Below are positions 35,990-52,168 of a stretch of 64,000 nt of DNA, piece by piece (the first letter of the stretch is position 1; each line of letters starts with the position of its first letter). The notes beneath the pieces are model-generated. The model was not told where the DNA came from, made no database searches, and saw only the letters and a list, made by a program, of their open reading frames with translations. Both the position numbers and the translations under genes were made by a program. The stretch lies in the NCBI RefSeq assembly GCF_000376265.1, contig NZ_AQWU01000069.1, forward strand, positions 1 through 64,000, given 5' to 3'. This DNA comes from Thermus igniterrae ATCC 700962 (GTDB lineage: Bacteria > Deinococcota > Deinococci > Deinococcales > Thermaceae).

Positions 35990-36946
35990 ATGGGGCGATG
36001 GGGGTTTCCCCAGGGGGGGTTTAGGCGGTGGGGACGGGGGGTCTTCTGGCTGACCTTGTTGCTCCTCGCCCTCGCCGCTTGTCGCGGGACGGGCGAGGCC
36101 CCTGAGCCTCCTGGAAGCCCACCTCCTGCGCCTGGTCCTGCGCCGAGCGTGCGTACTTGGATCTACCAGCTCACGGGCTATCCGGCCTCGGGGCTCGCCG
36201 CCTTGGGAGCCGCAGCCGCCGACCTTTACGTGATTGACCTCACCAAGGACGGGGCGACGCCTTGGTCGGGCGATGATCTTGCCGCCCTCGAGGGAAAACC
36301 CGTCTTGGCCTACATGGAGATCGGGGGGATGGAAAACTACCGGCCGGAGTATTCGGTGGTCCAAAAGGATGCGCCCGATCTACTCCTGAACTCGGTGCCA
36401 GGCTGGAGTGGGGAGTGGTATGCCAAGTACTGGGACGAGCGCTGGTGGAACCTAGTGGTGCGGCCTAGGCTGGACAAGGCCTTTGCGGCGGGGTTTAAAG
36501 GGATCTACCTGGACCTGGTGGATGCCTACGAGGGGATCAGCCTAAATTTGGTCCCGGGAGAAACCCGGGATAGCTTGGCGGCCAAGATGGTGGCCCTCCT
36601 GGGGCGGATCAGCCAGTATGTCAAGGCCAAAAGGCCCGACTTTTGGGTCTTTCCCCAAAACGCCCCGGAACTCAGGATGCGGCCGGGATATCTCTCGGCC
36701 ATAGATGGGATTGGCCTCGAGGAGCTCTTCTTCTACGCCACCGACAAACCCTGTACGGACTCGGGTTGCCAAGAACGCCTCGCCCACGCCCGCGCCATCC
36801 GGGATGCGGGCAAGCTGGTTCTCACGGTGGACTACGCCACCCGGCCGGAAAACGTGCGGGCGGCGTGCGAGAAGTCCCGTGCGGAGAGGTTTGTGCCGTA
36901 CGTGACCGTGGTGGACTTGGATCGGATTAGCCCCTTGTGTCCGTGA
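35990..36946 (+). CDS. GH114-type glycosidase lipoprotein
   Basis: A 318-residue protein from ATG 35990 with lipoprotein signal ending LLLLALAAC (Cys31), then a Pro-rich spacer and a TIM-barrel of the endo-alpha-1,4-polygalactosaminidase (GH114) type: VRTWIYQLTGY, DLYVIDLTKDG, VLAYMEIGGMENYRPEY, FKGIYLDLVDAY with the likely catalytic Asp, and IDGIGLEELFFYA with the second acidic residue. Such enzymes cut galactosamine-rich polymers; relatives accompany Pel-type exopolysaccharide genes. It is convergent with, and overlaps by 20 bases, the minus-strand GH114 gene. Confidence 0.82.
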   Translation: MGRWGFPQGGFRRWGRGVFWLTLLLLALAACRGTGEAPEPPGSPPPAPGPAPSVRTWIYQLTGYPASGLAALGAAAADLYVIDLTKDGATPWSGDDLAALEGKPVLAYMEIGGMENYRPEYSVVQKDAPDLLLNSVPGWSGEWYAKYWDERWWNLVVRPRLDKAFAAGFKGIYLDLVDAYEGISLNLVPGETRDSLAAKMVALLGRISQYVKAKRPDFWVFPQNAPELRMRPGYLSAIDGIGLEELFFYATDKPCTDSGCQERLAHARAIRDAGKLVLTVDYATRPENVRAACEKSRAERFVPYVTVVDLDRISPLCP

Positions 36947-37628
36947 GGCTCAAAAGGTACCGTTCCTGGGCGAGGACCGGCGTTAGCCCGTAGGCCAGGG
37001 CCCGCTTCCTTGCGAAGCGGGCGAGCCTAGGGTCTGGGGCGTAGTCTAGGCTGTACCGCTCCCAGGGGTATTGGGTAAGGACCAGGGCCCAGCGGGCGTT
37101 GGCGCGGAGGGCAGGCCGGGGAAGGGGCTTTCCGCCCCCTTCCCACGTGGTGGAGAAGGCTTCAAAGACGATGCCGTCCACGAGTTCCGCCAGGTGGGGC
37201 AGGAGGGCGAAGCCGCGGTTGGCGAGGAGGAAGCAGGGCCCCACCGCCCTGCGGATTTCCAAGAGAAGGCGTAGGGTGCCTTCCCGGTTCGTGGCCGCCC
37301 CTTGGTCCAGGGTGTCTAGGAAGAGGCCGCGAAAGCCTCGGGCCAAGTAAAGCAAGGCGCTTTCCACCACCTTGGCCACCCAGGCTGGGTGGGTGGGGTC
37401 CACGAGCCTCGTGTTCCAAAGGGGGTTCAGGCCCCGCTGCCAGGGCGCCTCGGGGCCCGGGTCCTCCCCGAGGCTCAGGTAGGCCAGGGGCTCGGTGGGG
37501 GCTAGGGCCGCTAGCTCCTCTGGGGTGTAGGCCCAAGGCTGCAGGACCACGCGGCGGAAGGCCCGAAGCTCGGCAAGCCTTCCTTGGCCGTAGTAAAAGG
37601 CGAGGGGCTTAAAGAAGGTAGACGCCAT
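36927..37628 (-). CDS. GH114-like glycosidase, no signal peptide
   Basis: A 233-residue TIM-barrel protein similar in layout to the GH114 lipoprotein: FFKPLAFYYGQGRLAELRAF, EPLAYLSLGEDPGPEAPWQ, FRGLFLDTLDQGA (candidate catalytic Asp) and LVDGIVFEAFSTTWEGGG (second acidic residue). No signal peptide is seen at this start, and the gene overlaps the membrane-protein gene upstream by 20 bases. In PelA the glycosidase is a domain of a larger protein; here it stands alone. Cytoplasmic location is surprising for a polysaccharide hydrolase and leaves room for another role. Confidence 0.72.
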   Translation of the reverse strand: MASTFFKPLAFYYGQGRLAELRAFRRVVLQPWAYTPEELAALAPTEPLAYLSLGEDPGPEAPWQRGLNPLWNTRLVDPTHPAWVAKVVESALLYLARGFRGLFLDTLDQGAATNREGTLRLLLEIRRAVGPCFLLANRGFALLPHLAELVDGIVFEAFSTTWEGGGKPLPRPALRANARWALVLTQYPWERYSLDYAPDPRLARFARKRALAYGLTPVLAQERYLLSLTDTRG

Positions 37629-38871
37629 AGCGCTCCGGGTGGCGCAAGTACTCCAGGAAGTAGAGGAGGAGGGAAAGCCCCACGGCCCCCAGGATCAAGG
37701 GGTTTTCCGTCAGGTGGAGGAGGAGGGCGCTTGCCAGCAAGGCGAAGGCGCTGGCCCGGATGCCCCCCAGAGCGTTTAGGCCCAAGGCCACGGCGCTCGT
37801 GAAGCCCAAGAAGCCAAAGCCGAGGAGCGCCTTTCCGTAAACGTCCGACCAGGGAAGCGCCAGCAGAAGGACCAAGGTGGGGACCGAGGCGGTGAGGGCG
37901 TAGGTCCAGAAGGCGCGTTGGATGGCAAGAACGAGGGATTCCGGGCTCGCCTTTTGCCAAAGGGTTTGGCCCAAGGCCTGCACGAAGGCGGCCAGGCGCA
38001 TCTCTATCAGCAAAGCGGCGAGCAGGTAAGCGGCTAGGCCCAAAAGCGCCCCTTGTCCTGCTCCTTCCACGAGGCGCCAGAGCACGAGGCCTTGCCCCAA
38101 GCCGTATGCGGCGTAGACCCATTCGGTTAGAGCGGCGTGGTACAAGAACAAGAGGCCGTGCGCTTTGGGCAGCCCCACTTCCCGAAGGAGGAAGGTTAGG
38201 GGGAAAAGCCCCACCCAAAGGGGAGAAGTTCCCACCATCCGGAGTACGATTGCCCCCAAGAGGAAGCCGGCGGCAACCCCTGTGGCCTTGCCCTCGAGGC
38301 CCTTAAGCGTCAAGACCCCCACCGCCACCCAGGCCACGCCCACGCTCCAGGAGGCGGCCGGGCCCAAATCCCAAGGGGCGGTGAGGGAAACGCCCACGAC
38401 CCCCAGCCAGGCAAAGGCGGCGTGGACGCTTGGGACCTCGCCCGGGCCGAGCTCCACCACCGCCTTGAGGGCTCCCCGGGCGGCGAGCTGGCTCCAGACC
38501 AGGAGGAAAAGGGCGGGAAGCCACCCCACCTCCCCCGCGCCTTGAAAAGCCACCAGGGTACCCAGCAGGGTGAGGGCCACCGCCAGGTGCCGCAACCCCA
38601 GGCCCCCTTGCGGCCTAGGGGCCTTTGCCCGGGGGCGAAAATCGCGCTGGGCCAGGGCGAAGAGGGCTTGGGCCAGGGCAAAGGTGCTCGTAAGCCCAAA
38701 GAGCCGTTCCACGCGGTAGCGGTTGTAGCCCAAAACCTCCAAGTGGGCGGCAAGCTCGTAGGGGTCGCTCGCTTGGGCGAGGAGGTCTTGGAGGGTGCGG
38801 GCCAGGTCCTGAAGTGCTTGGGCACGAGGGGGTGGGAAGGTGGGGGGGCGGTACTCTCCTCGGGCGCTCAC
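37609..38871 (-). CDS. Polytopic membrane protein, PelG-like exporter candidate
   Basis: A 420-residue protein from GTG 38871 (sharing GTGA with the glycosyltransferase stop). Residues 1-90 are soluble and helical (LARTLQDLLAQASDPYELAA, then GYNRYRVERLFG); the rest contains about ten hydrophobic segments, e.g. GLLFLYHAALTEWVYAAYGL and LLGLAAYLLAALLIEM. No clear family signature was recognised. Position directly after a PelF-like glycosyltransferase gene is that of PelG, the membrane exporter of Pel systems, and size is similar (PelG about 456). Assignment is by context. Confidence 0.6.
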   Translation of the reverse strand: MSARGEYRPPTFPPPRAQALQDLARTLQDLLAQASDPYELAAHLEVLGYNRYRVERLFGLTSTFALAQALFALAQRDFRPRAKAPRPQGGLGLRHLAVALTLLGTLVAFQGAGEVGWLPALFLLVWSQLAARGALKAVVELGPGEVPSVHAAFAWLGVVGVSLTAPWDLGPAASWSVGVAWVAVGVLTLKGLEGKATGVAAGFLLGAIVLRMVGTSPLWVGLFPLTFLLREVGLPKAHGLLFLYHAALTEWVYAAYGLGQGLVLWRLVEGAGQGALLGLAAYLLAALLIEMRLAAFVQALGQTLWQKASPESLVLAIQRAFWTYALTASVPTLVLLLALPWSDVYGKALLGFGFLGFTSAVALGLNALGGIRASAFALLASALLLHLTENPLILGAVGLSLLLYFLEYLRHPERYGVYLL

Positions 38872-40289
38872 TCCGGCACCTCCACCGCCCTGCGCAGGGC
38901 TAGACCCTCGTAAATGGCGGAAAACTCTCGCAGCATTCGCTCCAGGGTGTAAAGGGAGAGCACCTTTTCCCGAGCCTTTTGGCCCAATTCCAGGCACCGC
39001 TCGGGATTTTGTAGAAACCCTAAGAGGGCTTCCGCCAACGCCTCGGGATCCATGGCGGGCACCACCTCGCCCACCCCCTCCAAGACTTCCCCCACGCTTC
39101 CCACCCGGGTACCCACCAGGGTGCGGCCCACCGCCATGTTTTCAATGACCGTGTAGGGGAAGCCCTCGGAGATGCTGGAAAGAACCCCCACCCATCCCTG
39201 GCGGTAAGCCTGGTACACGGGGCTCGCCGGGCCCATGAAGCGCACGTTCGCTCCCAGGCCGAGTTCTTCCACGCGAGCCCTGACGCTTGCGGCGTAGCCC
39301 TCGTTGCCTCGAGGCACGGGGCCGAAGAGGAGGAGCCGGGCCTCCGGCGACGCCTCCCGCACCCTGCCGAAGGCTTCCACCAGGGTGAGGAGGTCCTTCA
39401 AGGGGTCAATCCGCCCCACCCAGACGGCGGTGGGGGGGCCTTCCAGGCGGAGAGGTGCCTCGGGGAACTGGGCGGGATCTATGCCGTTGGCCACCACCCG
39501 GATGCGCTTGGGGTCAGCCCCCAGCTCCACCTCCCAACGCAGGTTGAAGCGGCTCACCGTGGTGATGAAATCGGCCTTCTGGTAGGCCAAGCGGCTCGTG
39601 AGGTGGTAGAAGCGGGCCTGGACCAGGCGCTCCGCCGGAGAGGGGTTGGTTTCCGAGAAGGCCAGGTACCGCTCCCGCAGGAAAACCCCGTGCTCCGTGA
39701 GGAGGAAGGGCACCCCCAGGTGCCGGGATACGAGCCAAGCGGGAATGACCGCCAGGCCCCCGCTGGTGGCATGCACCAGGTCCACCTCGGGAATGGGGTC
39801 TAAAGCCAGGAGGGGAAGCAGGGTGGCGCGCAGCCAGTGCAAGACGGCAAGCCCCTCCCCCAAGGTGGGGGGGCGGCCAAGGAGGAGGCTGAGGCGTTGG
39901 CTGAGGAGCCCTTGGACCTTGGGATGGAGGAAGAGGTCGTGAAGGTGGCGCTTGCGCAGAAGGAAAAGCTCCCAAAGCCCCTCTTGGAAGCTGGCGAGGT
40001 CAAGTTCCAGAAAGGAGAAGAGCTTTTCCAAGGCGGGAAGAAGGGCGTGCAAGGGAGCGGGGGAGAAGGGGAAGGACCGGGGCGGGCGGAAGAGGTGAAG
40101 GGTCCGCAAGGGGGTGCCGGGAGGCAGGGGCAGGACCGGCTTGGTCTGCTGGGGTCCCCAAAGGGCGAGCACCGTGAAGGCCCCTTCCAGGCCGAAAAGG
40201 AGCTGCTCGCACCAGCGGCTTACCCCGCCCACGGCGTAGGGGTAGGTCCCTTCGGTGATGAAAAGAACCCTAAGGCGTTTGGAAGGCAT
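38868..40289 (-). CDS. PelF-like glycosyltransferase (GT4)
   Basis: A 473-residue GT-B enzyme. The start LRVLFITEGTYPYAVGGVSR, with WCEQLL following, is the hallmark of PelF (DUF3492 N-terminal domain). The C-terminal half has RIRVVANGIDPAQF, TAVWVGRIDPLKD and the nucleotide-sugar site SSISEGFPYTVIENMAVGR with the conserved E-x7-E. PelF uses UDP-sugar to polymerise the Pel polysaccharide in the cytoplasm. ATG 40289 overlaps the deacetylase gene by 20 bases; a TTG further upstream is less likely. Length is close to Pseudomonas PelF (about 507). Confidence 0.86.
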   Translation of the reverse strand: MPSKRLRVLFITEGTYPYAVGGVSRWCEQLLFGLEGAFTVLALWGPQQTKPVLPLPPGTPLRTLHLFRPPRSFPFSPAPLHALLPALEKLFSFLELDLASFQEGLWELFLLRKRHLHDLFLHPKVQGLLSQRLSLLLGRPPTLGEGLAVLHWLRATLLPLLALDPIPEVDLVHATSGGLAVIPAWLVSRHLGVPFLLTEHGVFLRERYLAFSETNPSPAERLVQARFYHLTSRLAYQKADFITTVSRFNLRWEVELGADPKRIRVVANGIDPAQFPEAPLRLEGPPTAVWVGRIDPLKDLLTLVEAFGRVREASPEARLLLFGPVPRGNEGYAASVRARVEELGLGANVRFMGPASPVYQAYRQGWVGVLSSISEGFPYTVIENMAVGRTLVGTRVGSVGEVLEGVGEVVPAMDPEALAEALLGFLQNPERCLELGQKAREKVLSLYTLERMLREFSAIYEGLALRRAVEVPE

Positions 40290-42381
40290 AGGTGCCCGTT
40301 CCGACAAAGCAGCGGTTCACGCCAGCGTAGGCTTCGCAGGCGGGGCCTTGGACGCCTGTCACCCAGACGGGCTTGCCCTGGAGGGTGAGGGTGCGGGCGG
40401 CCGGGTCAATCAGGGCCTTCACGCTTCCCGTCCGCACCGCCTCGTAGTGGCGGTAGCGCTTCAGGGCGTGCTCCCCGTACTCCCCCCAGGTGGGGGAGAG
40501 AAGGGGGAGGGCGGTGTAGGTGGCGTACTTGGCCACAAGGGTTTCCACCCAGTCAAAGACCAGGTTCTTGCCCGGGGCGTACTCATGGAGGTTGGCCTGG
40601 TGGAAGTAGTGGCTTCCCCCGTCGGTGAAAAGGTGCCAGAGCGCCAGGTTCGTTTCCTGCTGCAGGTATTCCGCGTAGGTCAGGTCGCGGGGCCAGTAGG
40701 GGTCAGTGCCGCCCGGGCCATAAACGCTGTTGTAGGCGGCTAGGGCTTCCTGCGCCGTGGTGACGTTGTAAAAGACGTTAGTGGGCCGGTCCGCCACCAG
40801 GTAAAGCCCGGGGGCGAGGGGGTGGGGGTAGGCGCAGGTGCGGCAGGGGGGCTTTTGGCTATCCACCGACCAGTTGATCTTGGCGAAGCGCACCTTGTAC
40901 TCCGCAAGGGCCTGGAGGAAGAAGGGGTTAGAGGCCCCAAGGCCGTTGTCCGTGCGGGGGAAGTCGTAGGGGTTTTGTCCCTTCCAGCCAAAGCCGGAGT
41001 ACTGGCCGCTTTTGAACACGGTGTGCTCGTAGCGGAGGCCGAGGAGGCTCGCCACCCGGTTGTTCTCGGCGATCTCGCGCTCCGCCTGGGCCAGGTCGGT
41101 GAAGTCCATGTCCCAGTGGGTGTAGGAGTGGTTGTAAAAGCGGAAGGTGTCCTTTAGGGCCTGGCTGGCCTGGACCAGGTCGTCCGCCAAGTTCAGGGGC
41201 TCTTGCGCCAGGGTTTCGGACGGGTCGCAGGGGTCTTGGTTGTCGTTGGGGTTGGGGTCCAAGACGGCCCCACAGCCGTTAAAAGCCAGGTCCAGGGTGA
41301 AGGCCTGAGCCACGGGGTAGGTTTGGCGGAGGATCGCCTGCTTGGCGGCGACGGCCTGGGCCTCGGCCCCGCTGAGGCGGAAGGTGAGGGTGTTCCCCAC
41401 CCCGGAGCTATCCCCAGAGACCTCGGTGGAGAGGAACCAGTCGTCCACGTCTACCCTGAGGTAGCGGCTGTACTCCCCCACGTACACCCCTCGGGTGAGC
41501 CAGCGGATGAGCCCGGGGGCGAGGAGCCAGGTGTGGACGAGGTAGGGGCTTTGGTCAAAGGTGAGGACGAGTTGCTCCCGCCCGTCAGCAGTGGCGCGCA
41601 CGATGCCGAAGAGGTTGCCATCGGCGTCCGTGAGAAGGGGGGTGGCGGCGCACGTGCCGCTTAGCGTCGCCTTGTAGGCATAGGCGTGCCGGAGGGGCAG
41701 GGTGCCCGTGAGGTCCGGGAAGAGGGTTTGGCCTTCTTGCGTCAAGGTGAGGGGGTAGCTTTGCGTGGCGAGGTCTATGCCGTTTGGGTCGTAGGCTGCG
41801 GGGCTTGGGGTTAAGAAGCCGGCCACGTTGCTCAGGCAGTGGTCCTCGGGGTAGGTTCCGGGATAGGTGTAGAGGACGAGTTCCCGAACGCCGTAATCCC
41901 GCTCGTAGGCCCAAAGGCGGTTCCAGTCGTCCGCGGACATGTGGTAGGTGGGTCCCGAGTCGGACCAGGTGGCCAGCTGGCCCTCCGCCAGGATCACCCC
42001 TTGGAAGCGCCCGGTGCCGTCGGGGTTGGTGAGGGGGACCTGGCTGAAGGGCGTCTGGCTCACGTTCACCACCTCGTAGGGGATGAGAAACGTTTCCAGG
42101 ATGTCTTGGGCGGCGGCGAAGTGGGGGGCTTGCTCGGGGTCGGTGGAGGTGGTCAGGACCAGGATGCGGGCCTCGTACTTGGCCCCGGGAAGGGCCTGGG
42201 GCCTTAGGGGAAGCGTGAGGGGTACGGGCCCCTCGAGGGCCGGCAAGGGGCGGCTTGGAAGCACCGGCAAGGCCGGGGGGGCGAGGGGCGGGCCCTTCAC
42301 CTGCACCTTGGGTGCCTGGGAGGACGGGCCTTGGAAGCTGCAGGCGGCGAGGAGGAGGGCAAGGAGGGCGAGGCGGCGCAT
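40270..42381 (-). CDS. Lipoprotein polysaccharide deacetylase-like (Agd3/PelA-type)
   Basis: A 703-residue protein with a lipoprotein signal MRRLALLALLLAAC (Cys14). Residues about 70-300 form an N-terminal alpha/beta region (EARILVLTTSTDPEQAPHFA). The central part shows a carbohydrate-esterase metal site: RYLRVDVDDWF (Asp pair) and FRFYNHSYTHWDMDF with H-x3-H, followed by GGSHYFHQANLHEY near the end. This layout resembles the CE18 deacetylase Agd3 and the deacetylase part of PelA, which remove acetyl groups from galactosaminogalactan or Pel. Surface anchoring fits polymer modification after export. Confidence 0.78.
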   Translation of the reverse strand: MRRLALLALLLAACSFQGPSSQAPKVQVKGPPLAPPALPVLPSRPLPALEGPVPLTLPLRPQALPGAKYEARILVLTTSTDPEQAPHFAAAQDILETFLIPYEVVNVSQTPFSQVPLTNPDGTGRFQGVILAEGQLATWSDSGPTYHMSADDWNRLWAYERDYGVRELVLYTYPGTYPEDHCLSNVAGFLTPSPAAYDPNGIDLATQSYPLTLTQEGQTLFPDLTGTLPLRHAYAYKATLSGTCAATPLLTDADGNLFGIVRATADGREQLVLTFDQSPYLVHTWLLAPGLIRWLTRGVYVGEYSRYLRVDVDDWFLSTEVSGDSSGVGNTLTFRLSGAEAQAVAAKQAILRQTYPVAQAFTLDLAFNGCGAVLDPNPNDNQDPCDPSETLAQEPLNLADDLVQASQALKDTFRFYNHSYTHWDMDFTDLAQAEREIAENNRVASLLGLRYEHTVFKSGQYSGFGWKGQNPYDFPRTDNGLGASNPFFLQALAEYKVRFAKINWSVDSQKPPCRTCAYPHPLAPGLYLVADRPTNVFYNVTTAQEALAAYNSVYGPGGTDPYWPRDLTYAEYLQQETNLALWHLFTDGGSHYFHQANLHEYAPGKNLVFDWVETLVAKYATYTALPLLSPTWGEYGEHALKRYRHYEAVRTGSVKALIDPAARTLTLQGKPVWVTGVQGPACEAYAGVNRCFVGTGTYAFQTP

Positions 42382-42385
42382 GGCT

Positions 42386-44335
42386 TCACCTTCCCTTCTG
42401 GGGCAGGTTCAGGGGGCTTAGCCCCAGACCCTGCGGCTGGATGCTCGCTACCCCGCTTCCTTGCTGGACCCCGTTGGCGTCCAAGGTCAAGACGTGCCAC
42501 CAGGTGTTGTACCCGACACCGCTTGTGGGGGCGGGGAAGTTGGCCACGGGGTAGCCCGCGTTAAAGACCTGCACCTGAGCCCCTGAGGTGCTCCAACTAC
42601 CCCCGCCGAAGTACCAGTGGACGTAGACGCGGTAGCTTCCCCCTTGGTAGGCGAAGCGGAGGGTTTCCTGCCCGGGGCCTTGGGGGGTATCCCCTTCCAG
42701 GCAGGCGGGGCCGGTGGGGGGGCAGGTGCCCGGGTTGTTCCAGTAGATGTGGTTCGCCGCCGGGCTGTCGGGGTAGAAGAGGTGGAGGTCCAAGTCGGCG
42801 GCGTTGTTCCAGGAGAGGAGTATGCGCCACTCGGAAGCGTAGGTGACGGTGAGGGTGAAGTCCCAGATCCCTGGGGTGCCGCCCCCTTGGGGCGTGGCCC
42901 GAAGGCGCAAGGGGTAGGTGCCGGGGGGTGGGTTTTGCACCTGGAGGGCCACGGGTCCGCCGCTCGCCGGAAGGGTGGTGCCGGAGAGGGCGATGCCGGG
43001 AGGAGGAGGGGTTCCGTCCTGGCGGGTGAGGGTGAGGTCCAAGGGGGTGTTGAAGCCGTTTTGCGGCGTTACGTTGACCTGGAGGCTTCCTGACCCGCCC
43101 CAGGGCAGGGTTAGGGCGGTATCCCCGCTTAGGGTGAAGCCCGTGGCCCTCAAGGTGAAGCTTGCCTCCCGCACCCGGCCTCCTCCTTCCGCCCGGAGGG
43201 TGAGGGCGTAGTCCTGAGGACTCAGGCTCGGGGCCAGGGCGAGGGTGAGGGCAAGGGTGAGGGGGTTTGGGCCAAGGCTTACCTGGGTGGGGCTCAGGAG
43301 GATGCCCGAGGGCGGGTTGACCAGGCTCAGGTTTACGGGTCCGGTGAAGCCGTTTAGGGGGGTGAGGGTGAGGGTGGCCTGGGCGGTGCCGCCCACGGGG
43401 GCGGTGGGGGTGCCCGAAAGGCTTAGGACGAAGTCGGGGGCGGTGCTGTTCACCGCGATGGCCCGGCTTCCCGCGCTCCCGGCGCTGAAGAGGATGGCCC
43501 CTTGGCTCACGCTTTGGTTGGCGGAAACCCGGTAGACTTTGCCCGCGTAACCCGAAGGGGTGGTGTCCTGGACGACGAGCCCCTCGGCCGCCTGGAAGGT
43601 AAGGGGGGGAAGCGTGCCGTGCCCGGAGTTGCCCACCAGGACCAGGGCGGTTTCGCCGGGGTTGAGGTTAAGGGCCAGGGGCGCCACCTCGAGGCCCGGC
43701 CCCAGGTTCGGATTCACCACCTTGCGCAAAAGCCGTACTAGGTCCTGCTCGTCCGCGTAGCCGCTGGAGTCCAGGTCGGCGTGGTAGCGGCGGTAGGGGG
43801 TGGGGGAGGCCGCACCCGTGAGGAGGTCGGCGAGGAGGAGGGCGTCCGACAGGCTCACCCCTCCGCTTCCGTTCAGGTCACCCAAAGGGTTTTGCGCAAA
43901 AGAGGCCTCCACCTCGTTCTGGGCTATGCCAGGAAGGGGGGTGTAGCCCTGAGAGGCCAGCTGGCCTTGGGGGGCCGGGCCTCCCCCTTCCCAGGAGGGG
44001 GTGATCCGGGTTGCTTCCGCTTCCAAAACGCGGACCTCGGGTCTTGCCCCCGGTCGAAGGACCTGGAACTGGACCCGAAGCACCTCGCCGGAGCGGGCTT
44101 GGTAGGAAACCCCTGCCAGGCGCACCTGGCCCGCCTCCTGGTACACCTCGGTGAGGAGGGGGCTTTGCAGGCCCAGGTAACGGAGGGCGCTTGGGTCAAA
44201 GGTGATGTCCACAAGCAGACCCCGCGTGGCCTCGCCACGCAGGACCAGGGTGTCGGGAGAAGGGGCATGAGTCCCTTGCGGACCCCCGCAGGCGGCGAGG
44301 AGGAGAAGGACGAGCAAGTAGGGGCGTTTTGCCAT
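42386..44335 (-). CDS. Cohesin-like/dockerin/Ig-like surface lipoprotein
   Basis: A 649-residue lipoprotein (signal ending LLLAAC, Cys16). Order of parts: cohesin-like beta-sandwich at about 28-110 (LVDITFDPSALRYLGLQSPL; LRVQFQVLRPGARPEVRV); type I dockerin at 151-207 with two calcium loops (LGDLNGSGGVSLSDALLLAD and HADLDSSGYADEQDLVRLLR); three or so Ig-like repeats at 215-500 with the recurring NGFTGPVNLSL / NGFNTPLDLTL pattern; and a C-terminal domain with ILLSWNNAADLDLHLFYPDS, typical of YfaP-like extracellular modules. Such cohesin plus dockerin combinations are known from cellulosomes; function here, beside polysaccharide genes, is probably surface assembly or polymer binding. Confidence 0.8.
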   Translation of the reverse strand: MAKRPYLLVLLLLAACGGPQGTHAPSPDTLVLRGEATRGLLVDITFDPSALRYLGLQSPLLTEVYQEAGQVRLAGVSYQARSGEVLRVQFQVLRPGARPEVRVLEAEATRITPSWEGGGPAPQGQLASQGYTPLPGIAQNEVEASFAQNPLGDLNGSGGVSLSDALLLADLLTGAASPTPYRRYHADLDSSGYADEQDLVRLLRKVVNPNLGPGLEVAPLALNLNPGETALVLVGNSGHGTLPPLTFQAAEGLVVQDTTPSGYAGKVYRVSANQSVSQGAILFSAGSAGSRAIAVNSTAPDFVLSLSGTPTAPVGGTAQATLTLTPLNGFTGPVNLSLVNPPSGILLSPTQVSLGPNPLTLALTLALAPSLSPQDYALTLRAEGGGRVREASFTLRATGFTLSGDTALTLPWGGSGSLQVNVTPQNGFNTPLDLTLTRQDGTPPPPGIALSGTTLPASGGPVALQVQNPPPGTYPLRLRATPQGGGTPGIWDFTLTVTYASEWRILLSWNNAADLDLHLFYPDSPAANHIYWNNPGTCPPTGPACLEGDTPQGPGQETLRFAYQGGSYRVYVHWYFGGGSWSTSGAQVQVFNAGYPVANFPAPTSGVGYNTWWHVLTLDANGVQQGSGVASIQPQGLGLSPLNLPQKGR

Positions 44336-44346
44336 ATGAGCACCTC

Positions 44347-45121
44347 TTAGGGGCCGAGGGAAAGGCTACCCACAGCCACGGATTCCTCTTCGTAGGAGCC
44401 TGCTTGCACCAGGATCCCTTCTTCTAGGGAGAGCACGTCCCCGCCCGACCCTCTCAGGGCAACCACTCCCACCTGACCGGGACCCTGGAAGGCTTGGGTG
44501 GCTTCGCAGGCCACCAAGGCGTTCCAGAGATTCGGGTTCCGGGAAACCTGGTGGAGGTCGGCGAGGCCCTCCTTGGGTGAGGGCTCCTGGGCTGAGGGTA
44601 AGGGTGAAACCCAAGAGGACCTCGAGGCGAAACCCCGCTCCTTGGTGGGGCCGGAGGGTTTGGCCGAGGTGGGTGGCCACGAAGTAGCCGTTCTCCCCCC
44701 GCCCCGGGAGTCTTGGCTTAAGGGCCAACAGGACCAAAACCCCGAGGTCCTTTTCCTGGGCGAGGTGGCCGCTTTGCGCCCGGAGCTTGAGGGCGTAACT
44801 TCTGGGCGCAAGCGTGTCTAGGGCAGAATCCCCCAGGGTTTCGTGGACTGCGTTGCCGGAAAGCCACACGGAGGAGGGGGTCAGGGCGAAACCGGGCGCA
44901 GAGCTGCCGTCCCAGTGGGCCAAGGTGAGATGCACCGAGCCGGCGAAACTCTCTTCTGGCGTGAGGGTGATCCAGGTGGCCTGGTTCCCCCCTTGGGGAA
45001 TGGTGAGGGTGGAGGGGAGGGGGCCTGAGAGGGTGAAGGAGGGACCAGGCACCCGGGGAAGCTGGGTATAAGAGGTAAGCCCTAAAAGCACGAGAAAACC
45101 CCGCATCCAAGCTGCCTTCAT
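44347..45121 (-). pseudogene. Frameshifted cohesin-type secreted protein
   Basis: Starts at ATG 45121 (sharing ATGA with the preceding gene) with signal sequence MKAAWMRGFLVLLGLTSYTQ, an Ig-like domain (GGNQATWITLTPEESFAGSV), and the beginning of a cohesin-like domain ending FTLTLSPGALTQGG. From there the frame turns to noise, while the frame shifted by one base continues GLADLHQVSRNPNLWNALVA and goes on to CEATQAFQGPGQVGVVALRG, ending at 44347. This aligns without gap to the C-terminal cohesin of the neighbouring 732-residue protein (GALTSGCTLDFVQVSTSPNQ). The break is in GGAGGG (plus 44567-44572): one extra G, either a real mutation, a sequencing error or a +1 frameshift site. Confidence 0.78.
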
Positions 45122-47316
45122 GGGGTCAGGGTGAGGCTTCCTCCGCTCACCGAGGTGTCCTCGGTGTAGTCGGGCTTGGTAAGCGCCACGTTCCCCACGC
45201 TCAGGGTTCCGCCGCCCGTTCCCGTGACGGTGAGGACTGCGAGCTGGCCGGGTCCGGTGAAGGAGCTGTTGCACACGAGGGCCACGTTCCACTGGTTGGG
45301 GCTCGTGGATACCTGAACGAAGTCCAGGGTGCATCCTGAGGTCAAGGCACCCGTGCCCGCGCTCAGGCTGAAGCCTGCGGGTAGCGTGACGCTAAAGAGA
45401 GCGGCGCGGTAGGCGTCCGTGGTGCCCACCAGGTTCACCCCCACGCTGTAGGTGTTGCCCGTGCGGCCCAGGAGGGTGGGTTGGAGGGCCTTGGGGGCGG
45501 CGTTAACCGTGAGGGTAAAGGCCTGGCTCCGGGCGAGGCCGCCACCTGTGGCTTGGAGGGTAAGGGTGTAGTTGCCGGGGGGCACGTTGGGCCCCACGTT
45601 CAGGACGAGGGCCACGTTGCCATTGGTGGTGGGGTTTTCGGCGAAGGCGTAGGTCACCTGGTTGCTCCCGTTGCCGAGGATGGTCCCGCTCAGGCTCAAG
45701 GACACGGGTCCAGAGAAGTGGGTGCGGTTGAGGGTGACGTTCCCTGTACCCGAAGCCCCTTGTGTTACGGCGATGTCGTTTGCGCTCACGGTGAAGTCGT
45801 AAAGGGTGACGCTCAGGGGTTGGCTGCGGGAGAGGTTCCCCCCGGTTGCCCGCACTTGGAGGTTGTAAACCCCAGCCGGGGCGCTTCCCGCCTGCACGGT
45901 CAAGGCCACGGGGCTGCTTGCGGGCAGGGTGGCGCTAGCCGGGCTTAGCGTGAGGGGAGTGGGGTTGCCGTTGGTGTCGGTGAGCCCCAGGCTCACGCTC
46001 CCGCTGAAGCCGCCGTAGGTGGAGAAGAACGCTTGTAGGCTTGCCGTTCCTCCCACGGGGAGGGTGAGGGCGCTCTGGTCTAGGTAGAAGTCAAACCCGG
46101 GGTTTTCCTGAACCACCAAGGCGAAAGGTTTTTCTTGGGAGTTGCTTCCGCTTTCCGCCTTGAGGCGCAGGGTGTAGGTGCCCGGGGCCACCCCGCTTCC
46201 TACGCTAAGGGTGAGGGTACCGCTGAAGGGGCCACTCAGGTTCACCGTGGAGGGGCTTGGTAGGCTCACTCCAGAGGGGGCGTCCAGGAGGCTCAGGCTC
46301 ACGGTGCCTGTGAAGCCGTTCACCGGGGTAAGGCTAAAACCTAGGGTGGCGGTTCCCCCGGGGGTGGTGCTGGTGCTCGGGGCGGCTAGGTTCAAGGTGA
46401 AGCTGGGGTAGGGGGCGTGGACCCGGGCGGTGCGGGTGCCGGCGGCGCCGGCTTGGCACTGAATGCTGCCTTCCAGGGTGTTGCTCTGGGCCTGCACCTT
46501 GTAGGCCTTGCCTGCGGCTCCCTGGGGGGTTTCGTCCGTCAAGGCGATCCCTTGGGGGTGGGTGCAGGACACGGTGGGAAGGGCGCCATTCCCGGAGTTG
46601 TTGAGGAGGAGATAGGCGGACGCCCCAGGGCTCAGGGTGAAGTCCTGCGGGGCGAGCTCCAAGTTAGGTTCTAAACCCGGGTTCACGATCTTCCGCAACA
46701 GAAGGGCCAGATCTTGGCCCGTTAGAGTGCCGCTAGAGTTGAGGTCGCCGTGGTAGCGCTGGTAAGGGGTGGGGTTCGTGAGGTTGCCGGCCAGAAGATC
46801 CGCGAGCAAAACGCCATCCCCCAGGTTTACCGCCCCGTTTCCATTCAGGTCGCCCAAGGGGTTTTGCACGAAGGAGGGGTCAGCATCCCCCTGGCCGATC
46901 CCTGGTACCGCGGATTGCGGCAGGAGCTGGGCCTGGGGCCGGAGGGTGCCTGCCCCCCAGGTTTGCCTTACCGTCCGCCCCTCGGGGTAGGTTTCCACCA
47001 CCCGCACCTCCGGCCGTGCCCCAGGCCGAAGCACCTCAAAGCTGAGCGCCAAGATGGGGCCCGAGGGCGCATTGGGGGCCACCGCCGCCGCCCGGACCCT
47101 CCCCGCTTCGGCGAAGGCCTCGGCGGCGTAGGGGCCTTCCGCCCCCACGTAGCGCAACGCTGTGGGGTCAAAGGTGGCCTCCACCAAGACCCCCCGCGCG
47201 CCGTCACCCTGGAGCGCCAGGGTCCAGGTTTCCGGGGCCCGGCTCGTGGGTTGCGAGCAAGCCCCAAGCAAGAGGCCTAGGGCCAATCCTAATACCGCAC
47301 GCCAACGCTCTTTCAT
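45118..47316 (-). CDS. Large cohesin/dockerin/Ig-like surface lipoprotein
   Basis: A 732-residue lipoprotein from ATG 47316 (AGGAGGT upstream; the longer frame adds no signal). Signal ends LLLGAC (Cys20). Parts: cohesin-like domain about 30-110 (GVLVEATFDPTALRYVGAEG); dockerin 153-211 (LGDLNGNGAVNLGDGVLLAD and GDLNSSGTLTGQDLALLLRK); four Ig-like repeats about 220-600 (each with NGFTGTVSLSL or GGFSGSVSLGL-type cores); and a C-terminal cohesin-like domain about 610-732 (NTYSVGVNLVGTTDAYRAAL ... GPGQLAVLTVTGTGGGTLSV). The N-terminal half is a paralogue of the protein at 42386. Having both interaction partners suggests self-assembly or linkage of the three surface proteins. Confidence 0.82.
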   Translation of the reverse strand: MKERWRAVLGLALGLLLGACSQPTSRAPETWTLALQGDGARGVLVEATFDPTALRYVGAEGPYAAEAFAEAGRVRAAAVAPNAPSGPILALSFEVLRPGARPEVRVVETYPEGRTVRQTWGAGTLRPQAQLLPQSAVPGIGQGDADPSFVQNPLGDLNGNGAVNLGDGVLLADLLAGNLTNPTPYQRYHGDLNSSGTLTGQDLALLLRKIVNPGLEPNLELAPQDFTLSPGASAYLLLNNSGNGALPTVSCTHPQGIALTDETPQGAAGKAYKVQAQSNTLEGSIQCQAGAAGTRTARVHAPYPSFTLNLAAPSTSTTPGGTATLGFSLTPVNGFTGTVSLSLLDAPSGVSLPSPSTVNLSGPFSGTLTLSVGSGVAPGTYTLRLKAESGSNSQEKPFALVVQENPGFDFYLDQSALTLPVGGTASLQAFFSTYGGFSGSVSLGLTDTNGNPTPLTLSPASATLPASSPVALTVQAGSAPAGVYNLQVRATGGNLSRSQPLSVTLYDFTVSANDIAVTQGASGTGNVTLNRTHFSGPVSLSLSGTILGNGSNQVTYAFAENPTTNGNVALVLNVGPNVPPGNYTLTLQATGGGLARSQAFTLTVNAAPKALQPTLLGRTGNTYSVGVNLVGTTDAYRAALFSVTLPAGFSLSAGTGALTSGCTLDFVQVSTSPNQWNVALVCNSSFTGPGQLAVLTVTGTGGGTLSVGNVALTKPDYTEDTSVSGGSLTLTP

Positions 47317-47560
47317 GGCACCTCCTGAATACGAACCCAAAATCTTTAGCGGGATGGAAGACAACAGACCAAACCTCCCCAGAGGAGGGAAAGGAGAACC
47401 GCCACGCTGCGGGGGAAGAAGGCATCAATTATCCATGGATCTCTGCTTCCACCCCGCTATCCCAAGCTTAGAAGGAGGTGAGGAACTTGTCTTCCGACTT
47501 TGGGCCTAGGTCAAAGGTTACCAGTGCCCTAAGTCTTTTATACGGAAGGTCCTAAGCCTC
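47317..47560 (-). other. Intergenic region before the surface-protein genes
   Basis: No coding potential seen in these 244 bases. Less GC-rich than its surroundings. A weak minus-strand promoter is possible (TTGGTC, 18 bases, TAAAGA, ending near 47345). GGAAGACAA (47356-47364) and TTGTCTTCC (47487-47495) are perfect inverted repeats 122 bases apart and could close a large leader structure. Confidence 0.4.
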
Positions 47561-48946
47561 CTACGGGAACTCCGTCAGCCCGCCCAAGGCCACGTAGGGC
47601 AGGAAGCCAAGCTCCAGGGCGCGCTGTTCCGCCCAAGCCTTGGCCTCGAGGCTTGGGGCCACATCCAGGCTCAAGGCGGGAAGCCCCCGGCTTCGGAAGG
47701 GCCAGACGGGGCTCGGGTCGGCCAGGCTGGGCCTTCCGGCGGCGTCCAGGGAGAGGCCCGAATAGACGACCCCATCTAGGTAACGGGCGGTGCGCCGCAA
47801 GACCCGGAAGCCCCGGTGTTGCAGGAAAAGGGCCCCGGGTTCGGCCTGGCGTAAGCCTCGCACCAAGGCGGCTAGGGCGGGGATTTTCTCCGGGTAAAGA
47901 TCGGCCAGGTCCAGCCCGTCCAGGAAGAAGCCTTCAAACCCCAAGGCGAGCAGCCGGGCCGCCTCGGCCCGCACGTAGGCCCGCCAAGCGGGGGACGCAG
48001 GGTCCATGAGGAGGGCGTCCGGCGCGTAGGGGTTGGGTCCCAAAGCGGCGTGCTGCCACCCTCGGGCTTCCGCCTCCTTTTGGGGAACCACCCCCAGGGG
48101 CAGGTAGGCCACCACCTTCGTTCCCCCCTCCTTGAGCCCTCGCACCAGGTCCAAGGGGGCTTCCCGGGCCAAGACCACCAGGTCGTACGCCCGGAGGCGG
48201 GCAAGGGTTTTGGGATCTCCCCCGTAGTAAAGCGCCCAGCGCTTAAGCCCTTGGAGGCGGCTTGGAATGGGGGGAAGGGCCGCTTCCCGGGCCCGCACCT
48301 CTGCGGTTAGGGCCTCGAGGTCCTGCGGGGCCTGGAGGAAGACCAGGTAGCCGTAATTGCCCGGGGAGTGGAAGCTTCCCCCCATGGGCCAGAGGGTGTA
48401 CTCCTGGGCACTCGGGTGGCCGCGGCCCACCTTGAGTTGCCACAGGCTCCCGGGCTTGGGGGGAGGAAGGGCTTCCCCGAAGGGGATGCGCAGGGCCGCC
48501 CACCACCCCCCCGGGAACGTCCCGGTCCGGGCCTCGTAGGAAAGGGGAGCGGTGTAGCGCCGGAAGCGCACGCCCTTGGGGTTCACCGCCAGGTGCAGGT
48601 CCGGGGCCTCCTCGTCAAAGGGGTCCCACCGCAGGAAGACCTCGAGGGTATCGTCCTGCCACCACTCGGGGTCGTCCGGGCCCCGCTCCGCCTTGGGCGG
48701 CGCCTCCTGCTCCAGGCGGGCCAGCACGTACAAGGCCTCGCCGTCGTAGGCCACCTGGAAGCTCCCGGGAAAGCGGGCGGTTTCGGGGGGGTACGTGGTG
48801 GTGAGGCGAAGGGAATAGACGGGAAGCCCCGGGTAGCTTTCCACGCCCCAGGGGCCTTGCGGGCGGGGCAGGGCTTGGGCCACCACCACCCTTTGGGCCA
48901 AGGCCAATCCACCCAGGGTCAATAGGGCTAGCAAAATTCGGAGCAT
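47561..48946 (-). CDS. Exported CBM9-like plus GH114-like protein
   Basis: A 461-residue secreted protein with signal MLRILLALLTLGGLALAQ. Residues 20-215 look like a carbohydrate-binding CBM9/DOMON domain (FQVAYDGEALYVLARLEQEA; WWQDDTLEVFLRWDPFDEEA; WWAALRIPFGEALPPPKPGS). Residues 235-461 are a GH114-like TIM barrel (KRWALYYGGDPKTLARLRAY; GFEGFFLDGLDLADLYPEK; RYLDGVVYSGLSLDA). It is thus a glycosidase with its own binding module, the third of its kind in this island. No ribosome site precedes the ATG, and a -10 lies seven bases upstream, so the mRNA is probably leaderless. Confidence 0.78.
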   Translation of the reverse strand: MLRILLALLTLGGLALAQRVVVAQALPRPQGPWGVESYPGLPVYSLRLTTTYPPETARFPGSFQVAYDGEALYVLARLEQEAPPKAERGPDDPEWWQDDTLEVFLRWDPFDEEAPDLHLAVNPKGVRFRRYTAPLSYEARTGTFPGGWWAALRIPFGEALPPPKPGSLWQLKVGRGHPSAQEYTLWPMGGSFHSPGNYGYLVFLQAPQDLEALTAEVRAREAALPPIPSRLQGLKRWALYYGGDPKTLARLRAYDLVVLAREAPLDLVRGLKEGGTKVVAYLPLGVVPQKEAEARGWQHAALGPNPYAPDALLMDPASPAWRAYVRAEAARLLALGFEGFFLDGLDLADLYPEKIPALAALVRGLRQAEPGALFLQHRGFRVLRRTARYLDGVVYSGLSLDAAGRPSLADPSPVWPFRSRGLPALSLDVAPSLEAKAWAEQRALELGFLPYVALGGLTEFP

Positions 48947-48952
48947 GGATTC

Positions 48953-48980
48953 ACTATAGCCCCTTAGCGCCTGGGGTCCA
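48953..48980 (-). promoter_or_regulatory. Promoter giving a leaderless transcript for the CBM9-GH114 gene
   Basis: Minus strand -10 TATAGT (48958-48953) with a possible -35 TGGACC (48980-48975), spacer 16. Six bases separate the -10 from the ATG at 48946, placing the transcription start at the start codon. The promoter overlaps the end of the upstream permease gene. Confidence 0.55.
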
Positions 48981-49761
48981 GCCGGTCCCTTAGCCCGTCC
49001 CCCAAGAGGTTGAAGCCGAGCACCGCCAGGGTGAGGGCGAGCCCCGGCACCAAGGCGGGGAAAGGGGAGAGGGGCAGGAAGCTTTGCGCCTCCCGGAGCA
49101 TCCGCCCCAGGCTCGGGGCGGGGGGCTGGACGCCGAGGCCCAGGTAGGAAAGGGCGGCCTCGGCCAGGAGGGCGGCGGCGAAGGCCAGGCTGGCCTGGAC
49201 GAGGAGGGGCCCGAGGAGGTTCGGCAGGAGGTGGCGGAGGAGGATCCGCCCCCTCGAGGCCCCCAAGGCCACGGCCGCCTCCACAAACGGGGCGCTCCGG
49301 AGGCTTAAGGCGTAGGCCCGGGCCAGGCGGAAGAAGGCGGGCACCATGGAAAGCCCCACGGCCAGCATGCTGCTCAGGGCCCCAGGCCCGAGGAGGGCGG
49401 CGAAGAGGAGGGCGAGGAGAAGCCCGGGGAGGGCGTAAAGCGCCTCCATCAGGAGGCTAAGCGCCCCGTCCCATGGCCCCGCCAAATAGCCGGCGAAAAG
49501 GCCCAAGGCCACCCCCAGGGTAAACCCCACCCCCACGGCGATGCCGCCCACCCAGAGGGCGTTTTTGGCCCCGTGGAGGACCCTCGCCAGGAGGTCCCGG
49601 CCCAAGGGGTCGGTGCCCAGGGGGTGCTCGGGGGAAGGGGGGCTCAGGCGGCGGAGGAAGTCGGGGGCGTTGGGGTCCACGGGGTAGAGGAAGGAGGCGA
49701 GGGCCAGGAGGAGGAAGAGGCCCACCAGGAGGCACCCCAGGAGGAGGCTTGGGCTACGCAT
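48964..49761 (-). CDS. Dipeptide-type ABC transporter permease, DppC family
   Basis: A 265-residue permease with six hydrophobic segments. The N-terminal loop SPPSPEHPLGTDPLGRDLLA is the conserved DppC/OppC hallmark, and LGASRGRILLRHLLPNLLGP is the EAA loop. Overlaps dppB by eight bases. No ATPase gene follows; a glycosidase gene with its own promoter does. Confidence 0.92.
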   Translation of the reverse strand: MRSPSLLLGCLLVGLFLLLALASFLYPVDPNAPDFLRRLSPPSPEHPLGTDPLGRDLLARVLHGAKNALWVGGIAVGVGFTLGVALGLFAGYLAGPWDGALSLLMEALYALPGLLLALLFAALLGPGALSSMLAVGLSMVPAFFRLARAYALSLRSAPFVEAAVALGASRGRILLRHLLPNLLGPLLVQASLAFAAALLAEAALSYLGLGVQPPAPSLGRMLREAQSFLPLSPFPALVPGLALTLAVLGFNLLGDGLRDRLDPRR

Positions 49762-50689
49762 ACTCCACCCTCGGGTCCAAAAGCCCGTAGAGGAGGTCCA
49801 CCAAGACGTTGAAGAGCACGATGAGGGCCGCCATGGTGAGGACCAGGCCCTGGAGGAGGGGGTAGTCCCGGGCCTCCAGGGCGGTGAGGGCCAGGCTCCC
49901 CAGGCCCGGCAGGGCGAAGACCGCCTCCACCACCACCGCCCCCGTGAGGAGGAAGCCCCCCTCGAGGCCGAGCAGGGTGACCAGGGGAAGGCTTGCCGGC
50001 TTCAGGGCGTGCTTGAGGAGGACGGAAGGCTCCGGCACCCCCTTGGCCCGGGCGGTGCGGATGTAGTCCTGGGAAAGCACCTCCAGGAGGCTCGCCCGGG
50101 CCATGCGGAACAGGATGGCGGCCCGGGAAAGGGCCAGGGTGAGGGCGGGGAGGAGGAGGTGGCGGAGGGCCTCCCTGGGGCTCGCCCAGCCCGGGAAGCC
50201 GCTTGCGGGCAGGAGCGGGAGATGGACGGCGAAGAGGTAAAGGAAGACCACCCCCAAAAAGAACGTGGGGAGGGACTGCAGGACGGTCACAAGGCCGCTT
50301 AGGGCAAGGTCCAAAGGGGGAAAGCGCACCGCAAGGAGCGCCAAGGGGAGGGCCAAGGCCAAGGCCCCCAAAAGCCCCAGGAAGACCAGGGCCAAGGACA
50401 GGGAAAGCCGCTCCTCTAGGAGTTCCGCCACGGGCTTGCCGTAGCGGATGGACTCCCCCAGGTCCATGCGGGCAAGCCCCCCGAGCCAGTCCAGGTAGCG
50501 CGCCAGGGGGGGCTTGTCCAGACCCAAGGACCTCTCCAGGGCCGCCCGGGCCTCGGGGGAGGCCTCGAGGCCCAGGATGGCCTGCACCGGATCCCCAGGC
50601 AGGAGGAGGAGGGAGGCGAAGACCAAGGTGGCGGCAAGCCAAAGGGTGGCCAGGGCGAGGAGGAGGCGCCTTAAGAGGAAGCCCCGCAT
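49754..50689 (-). CDS. Dipeptide-type ABC transporter permease, DppB family
   Basis: A 311-residue permease of normal DppB size. Seen: N-terminal RRLLLALATLWLAATLVFAS, the periplasmic-side GDPVQAILG, SLGLDKPPLARYLDWLGGLA and the C-terminal EAA loop YIRTARAKGVPEPSVLLKHA with VVEAVFALPGLGSL. Its start abuts the binding-protein stop. Confidence 0.93.
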   Translation of the reverse strand: MRGFLLRRLLLALATLWLAATLVFASLLLLPGDPVQAILGLEASPEARAALERSLGLDKPPLARYLDWLGGLARMDLGESIRYGKPVAELLEERLSLSLALVFLGLLGALALALPLALLAVRFPPLDLALSGLVTVLQSLPTFFLGVVFLYLFAVHLPLLPASGFPGWASPREALRHLLLPALTLALSRAAILFRMARASLLEVLSQDYIRTARAKGVPEPSVLLKHALKPASLPLVTLLGLEGGFLLTGAVVVEAVFALPGLGSLALTALEARDYPLLQGLVLTMAALIVLFNVLVDLLYGLLDPRVEYA

Positions 50690-52168
50690 CTAGCGCGCCA
50701 GGTAGACCCGGGTCACGTTGAGGCTCGGGGTGGGCTGGTTCTGCCACCAGCCCATCACCTCCCGGCGCATGGCGGCGATGTAGGGGGCGTTCATCACCCA
50801 GACGTTCACCGCGTCCTGGGCCAGGAGGCGTTGCATTTCCTTCATGAGCTCACAGGCCCGGTTGGGGTCGGGGGTGCGCAGGTACTGGGTGTAAAGCTCC
50901 CGGAAGCGAGGGGAGTCGTAGCGGAAGTAGTAGCTCGGGTTGGCGTATATCCCGATGTCGTGGGGCTCGGAGTGGCCGATGATGGTCATCTGGTAGTCCG
51001 CCCCGCGGAAGACCCGGGAAAGCCAGGTGGCCCACTCCACCACCTCCAGCCGGGCCTGGACCCCGATCTGGCCCAGCTGGGCGGCGATGGCCTCCCCGAG
51101 CCGCCGCTCATAGGGGTAAGGGGCCGCCAAGGTGAAGGTGAAGCGCAAGGGGTTATTGGGCCCGTACCCCGCCTCCTGCAAAAGGGCCCGGGCCCGGGCG
51201 GGGTCGTAGGGGTAGAAGCCGGAGAGGTCTTCGTAGCACCGCTCTCCCGGCGAGCGGTGGCTGCCGATGGGGGTGCCATAGCCCAGCATCACCCCCTCCA
51301 CCAGGGCCTTCTTGTCCACGGCGTGCTGCATGGCCCGGCGCACCCGGAGGTCGTTGAAGGGGGGGCGGCTGTTGTTCATGCCCACGGTGATCTCCGTGGT
51401 GGTGAAGCCCGTGACCACCTTGAAGGCGGGGTCCCGCTGCAACACCAGGGCGTTTTCCGGGCTCACCCCCAGGCCGATCACGTGGATGTCCCCGGCCCGG
51501 AGGGCGGCGAGCTGGGCGTTCGGGTCGGGGAGGAAGCGGAAGAAGACCCGGTCCAGGTAGGGAAGGCCGGGCTCGTAATAGCCGTCAAAGCGCTCCAACC
51601 GCACCCCCACCCCCCGCTCCCAAGCCACGAAGCGGAAGGGTCCGGTGCCGATGGGGTTCGTGCGCTGCTCCTCCACCCGCCCTTTGGGCCCGATGACGGA
51701 GTCGGGGCGGGCCAGGTTGAAGAGGAAGTCCTGGTTGGGCTGGCGCAGGCGGAAGACCACGGTGTAGGGGTCCTTGGCCTCCACGCTTTGGATGTCCTGG
51801 TAGTACTCGGGGTGGGTGTGGCCGGACTTGGGGTCCCGGGCGCGGGTGAACTTGAAGACCACGTCCTCGGCGGTGAAGGGGCTCCCGTTGTGAAAGCGTA
51901 CCCCCTTGCGCAGGTAGAAGGTCCAGGTGAGGCTCGTGGGGCTTCCCTGCCAGCGCTCCGCCAGGGCGGGCACGATCTCCCCCTTCTCATTGAACTTCAC
52001 CAGGCCCTGGAGGACGTTGTCGTAGAGCATCCGGGGAATCTCCTGGCTGGTGGAAGCCGTGGGGTCCAGGACCGGGGGTTCGGCCAGGATGGCCACCCTT
52101 AGCTCCCCGCCCCGGGTCTGGGCCAGGGCTAGGCCCAACAGCAGCACCAAAGCCAGCCACTTTCGCAT
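50690..52168 (-). CDS. Dipeptide-type ABC transporter substrate-binding protein (family 5)
   Basis: Exported protein of 492 residues with signal MRKWLALVLLLGLALAQ and the family 5 core: PALAERWQGSPTSLTWTFYL, the RKGVRFHNGSPFTAEDVVF segment (signature), and VRRAMQHAVDKKALVEGVML. AAAGGAGG precedes the ATG. Relatives bind di- or oligopeptides, nickel or sugars; the downstream M20 peptidase neighbour suggests peptides or acyl-amino acids. Confidence 0.92.
   Translation of the reverse strand: MRKWLALVLLLGLALAQTRGGELRVAILAEPPVLDPTASTSQEIPRMLYDNVLQGLVKFNEKGEIVPALAERWQGSPTSLTWTFYLRKGVRFHNGSPFTAEDVVFKFTRARDPKSGHTHPEYYQDIQSVEAKDPYTVVFRLRQPNQDFLFNLARPDSVIGPKGRVEEQRTNPIGTGPFRFVAWERGVGVRLERFDGYYEPGLPYLDRVFFRFLPDPNAQLAALRAGDIHVIGLGVSPENALVLQRDPAFKVVTGFTTTEITVGMNNSRPPFNDLRVRRAMQHAVDKKALVEGVMLGYGTPIGSHRSPGERCYEDLSGFYPYDPARARALLQEAGYGPNNPLRFTFTLAAPYPYERRLGEAIAAQLGQIGVQARLEVVEWATWLSRVFRGADYQMTIIGHSEPHDIGIYANPSYYFRYDSPRFRELYTQYLRTPDPNRACELMKEMQRLLAQDAVNVWVMNAPYIAAMRREVMGWWQNQPTPSLNVTRVYLAR

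Follow-up and report, generated by a model that had tools for sequence, protein, structure and literature searches.

How might a galactosamine-rich polysaccharide be made and exported where no PelG exporter is recognized? The question is raised by an island at positions 35990–48946 of a 64,000-nucleotide stretch of Thermus igniterrae ATCC 700962 (contig NZ_AQWU01000069.1, positions 1 to 64,000; this whole stretch is called the window below). A PelF-like glycosyltransferase lies there beside a multi-spanning membrane protein, an Agd3-like lipoprotein deacetylase and three proteins of galactosaminidase fold. An earlier sequence-only reading had proposed that a polymer is synthesized, exported and deacetylated by these proteins. 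All of the genes named in it are present, and with a PelF, a CE18-like deacetylase, an exporter candidate and hydrolases in place its theme was upheld as the likely function. We regard the island, with a probability of about 0.72, as a synthase-dependent exopolysaccharide cluster of the Pel/galactosaminogalactan type, serving synthesis, export and partial deacetylation. This role is proposed because the order deacetylase–PelF–membrane protein is that of pelADA-pelF-pelG in Bacillus cereus, and because the enzyme families involved all act on polymers of this kind.

The transferase scored 149 bits against the NCBIfam PelF model (cut-off 100) and 122.9 bits against Pfam DUF3492 (cut-off 23.3), confirming its suspected relationship to PelF. 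The 703-residue protein, put forward as a CE18-like lipoprotein deacetylase, likewise exceeded the cut-offs of both Agd3 domains (Agd3_CE 43.9 bits, CBM87_Agd3 42.3 bits; cut-offs 27.6) and carries a LAAC lipobox. It was matched to the solved Agd3 structure 6nwz by phmmer at 5.3e-14. Residues D313/D314, H418/H422 and H594 align with D377/D378, H510/H514 and H668 of Agd3, and the catalytic motifs CM1 (DD), CM2 (HxxxH) and CM4 (H) are all present. The corresponding Agd3 residues serve as base, metal ligands and acid (PMC7229062). The position of the CM3 arginine (Agd3 R613) falls outside the phmmer alignment blocks.

The exporter candidate is indeed a multi-spanning protein with a predicted MOP-type fold, but the PelG model PF16933, against which the sequence-only reading had suggested comparing it, gave no match. 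Its gene starts on the last base ahead of the pelF stop codon (GTGA overlap), and a conserved soluble helical domain occupies about residues 17–73 at the N-terminus. The protein had no Pfam or NCBIfam match, and no convincing Pfam match was obtained for any of 27 family members. PF16933 found nothing at E ≤ 10 in the same genome, nothing in 61 genomes (this one and 60 relatives) and, in 20 genomes with related loci, nothing that exceeded its cut-off. Profile comparison of the family with PelG by hhalign gave 0.1–0.4%, compared with 99.2% for the positive control of PelG with PelG. Tests of PelG homology by sequence were negative with Pfam, with a sequence search of the PDB and with profile comparison, and the protein is not detectably PelG at that level. 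A Chloroflexota relative represented by two sequences seemed to link the family to PelG (76% over the full length, E 2.2e-5; an unrelated protein with 12 transmembrane segments gave 0.2%). The value fell to 3.2% after two sequences were added, and no such link is claimed. In the Streptomyces flaveus genome, a weak PelG-like match belongs to a different protein.

Structure prediction points to the MOP fold. AlphaFold2 models were obtained for the Thermus protein (predicted local distance difference test, pLDDT, 86.8; predicted TM-score, pTM, 0.76) and for a Streptomyces relative (pLDDT 86.9, pTM 0.79), from alignments drawn from overlapping sets, so that the two are not fully independent. For both, the best Foldseek matches were MATE, WzxE and MurJ (probability 1.00, TM-score about 0.4–0.5). 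A MOP-type fold is therefore probable; PelG is usually assigned to the same superfamily. In Thermus sp. 2.9 (L047:11311-12698) the gene is split into two overlapping open reading frames (ORFs) of 267 and 203 aa, either through a real disruption or through an error in sequencing.

Three proteins of galactosaminidase fold are present, as had been described, but their designation as GH114-type was revised: one is of GH191 type and two are GH166-like, one of the latter lacking the catalytic Glu. For none of the three was the nearest solved relative a GH114 enzyme. The closest solved structure to the GH191-type lipoprotein is 9ep5 (2.2e-74), which we assume is the environmental GH191 enzyme described in PMC12054363. 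The GH191 enzyme TM1410 is next (2.3e-28), and the GH114 enzyme Ega3 was matched at 0.003 only; the family definitions are those of PMC12054363. Its active-site Asp and Glu motifs, YLDLVD and GLEELF, are kept. The other two proteins score below or at the Pfam GH114 cut-off.

The shorter GH166-like protein is encoded directly after the membrane protein. Its family profile matched the PelA hydrolase 5tcb at 2.5e-37, against about 3e-14 for TM1410. E156 aligns with PelA E218 and is invariant in 15 sequences; D105, too, does not vary across Thermus, Meiothermus, Trueperaceae and Caldatribacterium, the groups over which E156 is kept. No N-terminal signal was found in the homologues of these four groups. 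The gene shares 20 nt, stop codon included, with that of the membrane protein, and the same overlap occurs in seven related loci outside the window. In a Chloroflexota locus (L065:13366-14100), a signal-less 245-aa spherulin-4-like ORF lies directly downstream of the membrane-protein relative and may be another example of a hydrolase kept in the cytoplasm next to a synthase.

The longer GH166-like protein has S396 at the position of the PelA catalytic E218, and Ser is found there in all five aligned Thermus sequences of its family. A dN/dS (nonsynonymous to synonymous substitution ratio) of about 0.2 indicates purifying selection despite loss of the Glu; over all island genes the values are 0.08–0.32, again purifying selection. 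On plasmid pTB1 of T. brockianus GE-1 (L127:5373-6768), the homologue is annotated as two overlapping ORFs.

Cohesin/dockerin proteins had also been reported. The dockerin part stands as borderline: Dockerin_1 scored 24.5 bits in lipoprotein 2 and 21.2 bits in lipoprotein 1, on either side of the 22.9-bit cut-off, and solved dockerin chains matched each at 1e-3. No cohesin domain was matched among the island proteins scanned.

Of 27 Thermus genomes, the same 8 (that of the window, G005, G006, G007, G008, G013, G023 and G026) carry both PelF and the membrane protein, with the gene order kept in all eight as far as the contigs reach. Missing PelF or CE18 matches, or genes scattered among other Thermus genomes, had been named as results that would speak against a common cluster. 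Neither was found; the gene set is co-inherited. The flanks vary, a common Opp/TRAP-side neighbourhood being present in four carriers and absent from at least two others. The Opp genes adjoin the island in the window and in G005, G008 and G023 but not in G006 or G026, and none was detected at that place in G007. T. brockianus GE-1 carries its island on plasmid pTB1. The run deacetylase–pelF–membrane protein–GH166-like gene recurs in a second genus of the family, in four of its members.

Gene order was then compared in the 80 PelF loci of GTDB genomes most similar to the Thermus island PelF, and the figures describe this one branch, not all PelFs. Using a hidden Markov model, a membrane-protein gene was found after pelF on the same strand in 77 of the 80, with a 4-nt overlap (ATGA or GTGA) in 67; an Agd3-like gene lies upstream of pelF in 73. 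Of the remaining three loci, two are from Chloroflexota and hold a relative of the membrane protein (97–99% in profile comparison), and one is a contig end. The membrane protein thus directly follows pelF wherever this is testable in the sample, which spans four phyla. Some Atribacterota and Trueperaceae loci consist of pelF, the membrane protein and the GH166-like gene only.

Two further loci have layouts of their own. On a Kocuria rosea plasmid (L137:5165-11870), two transposase genes flank a compact run of five: pelF is preceded, at the place of the deacetylase, by a gene for a 733-aa hypothetical protein and followed, at the place of the membrane protein, by a hypothetical gene and then by spherulin-4 and endo-galactosaminidase genes. 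In G059 (L043:3992-11923), Agd3-like domains lie within a 2644-aa ORF, which is followed by another long ORF of Agd3-like type and by pelF.

In the PelF tree, a branch with full support has 31 PelFs partnered by the membrane protein on one side and six partnered by PelG on the other, the latter being the whole PelG-type sample and all plasmid-borne. The Thermus PelF groups with that of Caldatribacterium. A tree constrained to join Thermus and Meiothermus, a group named after the tree had been seen, was rejected (approximately unbiased test, p 8e-5). Horizontal spread of the island is supported by the PelF tree together with the patchy distribution. We give even odds to a broader proposal, that PelF-dependent polysaccharide machines have a second branch, present in four or more phyla (among them Deinococcota, Actinomycetota, Chloroflexota and Atribacterota). 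In it, PelG would be replaced by an exporter of MOP fold, from an unnamed family, that has an N-terminal docking domain of its own, PelD and PelE would not be needed and, in Deinococcota and Atribacterota, a cytoplasmic PelA-hydrolase-like enzyme would be translationally coupled to the exporter.

The minus-strand operon (Table 1) is read from the CBM9-like protein through lipoprotein 2, the remnant, lipoprotein 1, the deacetylase, PelF and the membrane protein to the signal-less GH166-like protein, and the GH191-type gene is convergent to it. The 154-aa ORF of the remnant is 41% identical to lipoprotein 2, and its counterpart is a single ORF of about 252–257 aa in G005 and on T. brockianus pTB1; the remnant has the look of a partial lipoprotein 2 copy that is broken or drifting. 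Directly upstream of the island and on the same strand are OppA, OppB and OppC (48964–52168), OppC ending 17 bp before the gene of the CBM9-like protein. GC content was considered as a sign of foreign origin and discarded, the values of island and window (66.5% and 68.2%) being too close.

Table 1. Features of the Thermus igniterrae island, in window positions.
Feature	Position	Strand	Evidence
GH191-type endo-galactosaminidase lipoprotein, 318 aa	35990..36946	+	Pfam GH114 104 bits; similarity to 9ep5 and TM1410; lipobox LAAC
PelA-hydrolase-like (GH166) protein without signal, 233 aa	36927..37628	-	Profile match to 5tcb; D105/E156 kept
Multi-spanning membrane protein, candidate exporter, predicted MOP-type fold, 420 aa	37609..38871	-	AlphaFold2 model and Foldseek
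PelF-family GT4 glycosyltransferase (DUF3492), 479 aa	38868..40307	-	NCBIfam PelF; Pfam DUF3492
Agd3-like (CE18 + CBM87) lipoprotein deacetylase, 703 aa	40270..42381	-	Both Agd3 Pfam domains; 6nwz alignment
Dockerin-like lipoprotein 1, 649 aa	42386..44335	-	Dockerin_1 just under cut-off; lipobox LAAC
Remnant of a shortened lipoprotein 2 relative, two overlapping frames (322-aa and 154-aa ORFs)	44347..45334	-	Similarity to lipoprotein 2
Dockerin-bearing lipoprotein 2, about 732 aa (ORF open from 47364)	45118..47316	-	Dockerin_1; lipobox LGAC
Secreted CBM9-like + PelA-hydrolase-like protein, Ser at catalytic Glu position	47561..48946	-	PelA match 4e-16

From these components a pathway can be proposed. 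At the cytoplasmic face, PelF would polymerize an N-acetylhexosamine, most likely N-acetylgalactosamine (GalNAc) from UDP-GalNAc. The membrane protein, a predicted MOP-fold exporter in the gene position of PelG, would move the chain over the inner membrane, and its N-terminal helical domain may dock PelF. Outside the inner membrane, part of the acetyl groups would be removed by the Agd3-like lipoprotein, leaving a cationic, adhesive polymer that would then pass the outer membrane. The GH191-type lipoprotein would trim this polymer, while the signal-less GH166-like protein may end synthesis or cut chains remaining in the cytoplasm. Binding or organizing the polymer at the surface is the probable role of the Glu-less GH166-like protein, which has a CBM9-like domain, and of the dockerin lipoproteins.

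Several points weigh against this pathway. The polymer is a prediction from gene content. Thermus has an outer membrane, and no PelB/PelC-like route across it was recognized, although no model search was aimed at these two proteins. The island holds no UDP-GalNAc epimerase, and the best GalE-like gene of the genome, at 196 bits, is below the 262-bit GalE cut-off. The TM-scores to MOP structures are modest, at 0.4–0.5, and a MOP fold is also compatible with a lipid-linked flippase. This last point leads to one of two less likely alternatives to polymer synthesis, in which the PelF-like transferase would add sugar to a lipid carrier and the MOP-fold protein would flip the product as Wzx does, giving a surface glycan. 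WzxE and MurJ are indeed found beside MATE among the Foldseek matches. Nevertheless, the island genes scanned included no recognizable initiating phosphoglycosyltransferase, Wzy polymerase or ligase, and the relatives of PelF, Agd3 and the GH166 and GH191 proteins all indicate synthase-dependent Pel/galactosaminogalactan chemistry, which makes a lipid-linked glycan improbable.

Scavenging is the other alternative, also unlikely but slightly less so. The secreted hydrolases and the deacetylase would degrade the galactosamine polymers of other organisms, and the Opp-type ABC transporter would import the oligosaccharides. The several galactosaminidase-fold proteins and the same-strand Opp genes immediately upstream would suit such a locus, but Opp accompanies the island in only some carriers, as described above, and PelF with its coupled membrane protein, the part most conserved across phyla, is left unexplained. 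It is very unlikely that the island is a decaying leftover of a plasmid-borne cluster with little present function: broken frames do occur (the remnant, the membrane-protein gene of Thermus sp. 2.9 and the CBM9-like homologue of T. brockianus GE-1), but the main genes of the window are all intact and under purifying selection.

Read as a polymer-synthesis cluster, the island can be compared with known systems. It had been thought to match no known cluster. This view was not sustained, and the kind of cluster is not new, since Bamford et al. (2020, PMC7229062), in their account of bacterial agd3 operons, Deinococcus-Thermus included, report that the Agd3 homologue is accompanied by a cytoplasmic glycosyltransferase, a multi-spanning membrane protein and, frequently, more than one GH114-type gene, as in the island. 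In that section no description was found of the fold or family of the membrane protein, the separate PelF branch, the signal-less and the Glu-less GH166-like genes or the dockerin lipoproteins; the supplementary operon lists of the paper may contain the Thermus locus.

The pelDEADAFG operon of B. cereus, which makes a deacetylated GalNAc polymer (PMC7112168, PMC13254593), has the same deacetylase–PelF–membrane protein order, but its deacetylase is CE26/CBM114 rather than CE18/CBM87. It also has PelD, PelE and PelG; in Thermus, PelG was not detected, and a PelD search of the same genome was silent, as were its control genomes, so that absence of PelD cannot be claimed. Pseudomonas aeruginosa pelABCDEFG shares the PelF family, and the GH166 hydrolase domain of its PelA resembles two island proteins. 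PelA fuses this hydrolase to a CE21 deacetylase, whereas the island has separate proteins with a CE18-like deacetylase. None of PelB–E of that system was recognized among the island genes in general Pfam/NCBIfam scans, with no dedicated model search for PelB, PelC or PelE. The Aspergillus galactosaminogalactan cluster (uge3, gtb3, agd3, ega3, sph3) also combines a CE18 deacetylase and galactosaminidase genes with a membrane-borne synthase. Gtb3, however, is a single fungal integral-membrane transferase, whereas transferase and membrane protein are two genes in the island, in which no epimerase or GH135 gene was recognized.

The membrane protein is labelled as a hypothetical protein in five annotated records (Thermus, two from Deinococcus, Streptomyces and Kocuria). 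Its recognition as the regular partner, probably of MOP fold, in a distinct PelF branch makes it a named target for studying how galactosamine polymers are exported without a recognizable PelG. The hydrolase with complete catalytic residues and no signal peptide, placed beside a synthase, raises the question of its intracellular substrate. The Thermus version probably offers heat-stable CE18-like, GH191 and GH166-like enzymes in a genetically tractable genus. By means of this island, some hot-spring Thermus can probably produce a sticky polymer of galactosamine and release it from the cell.

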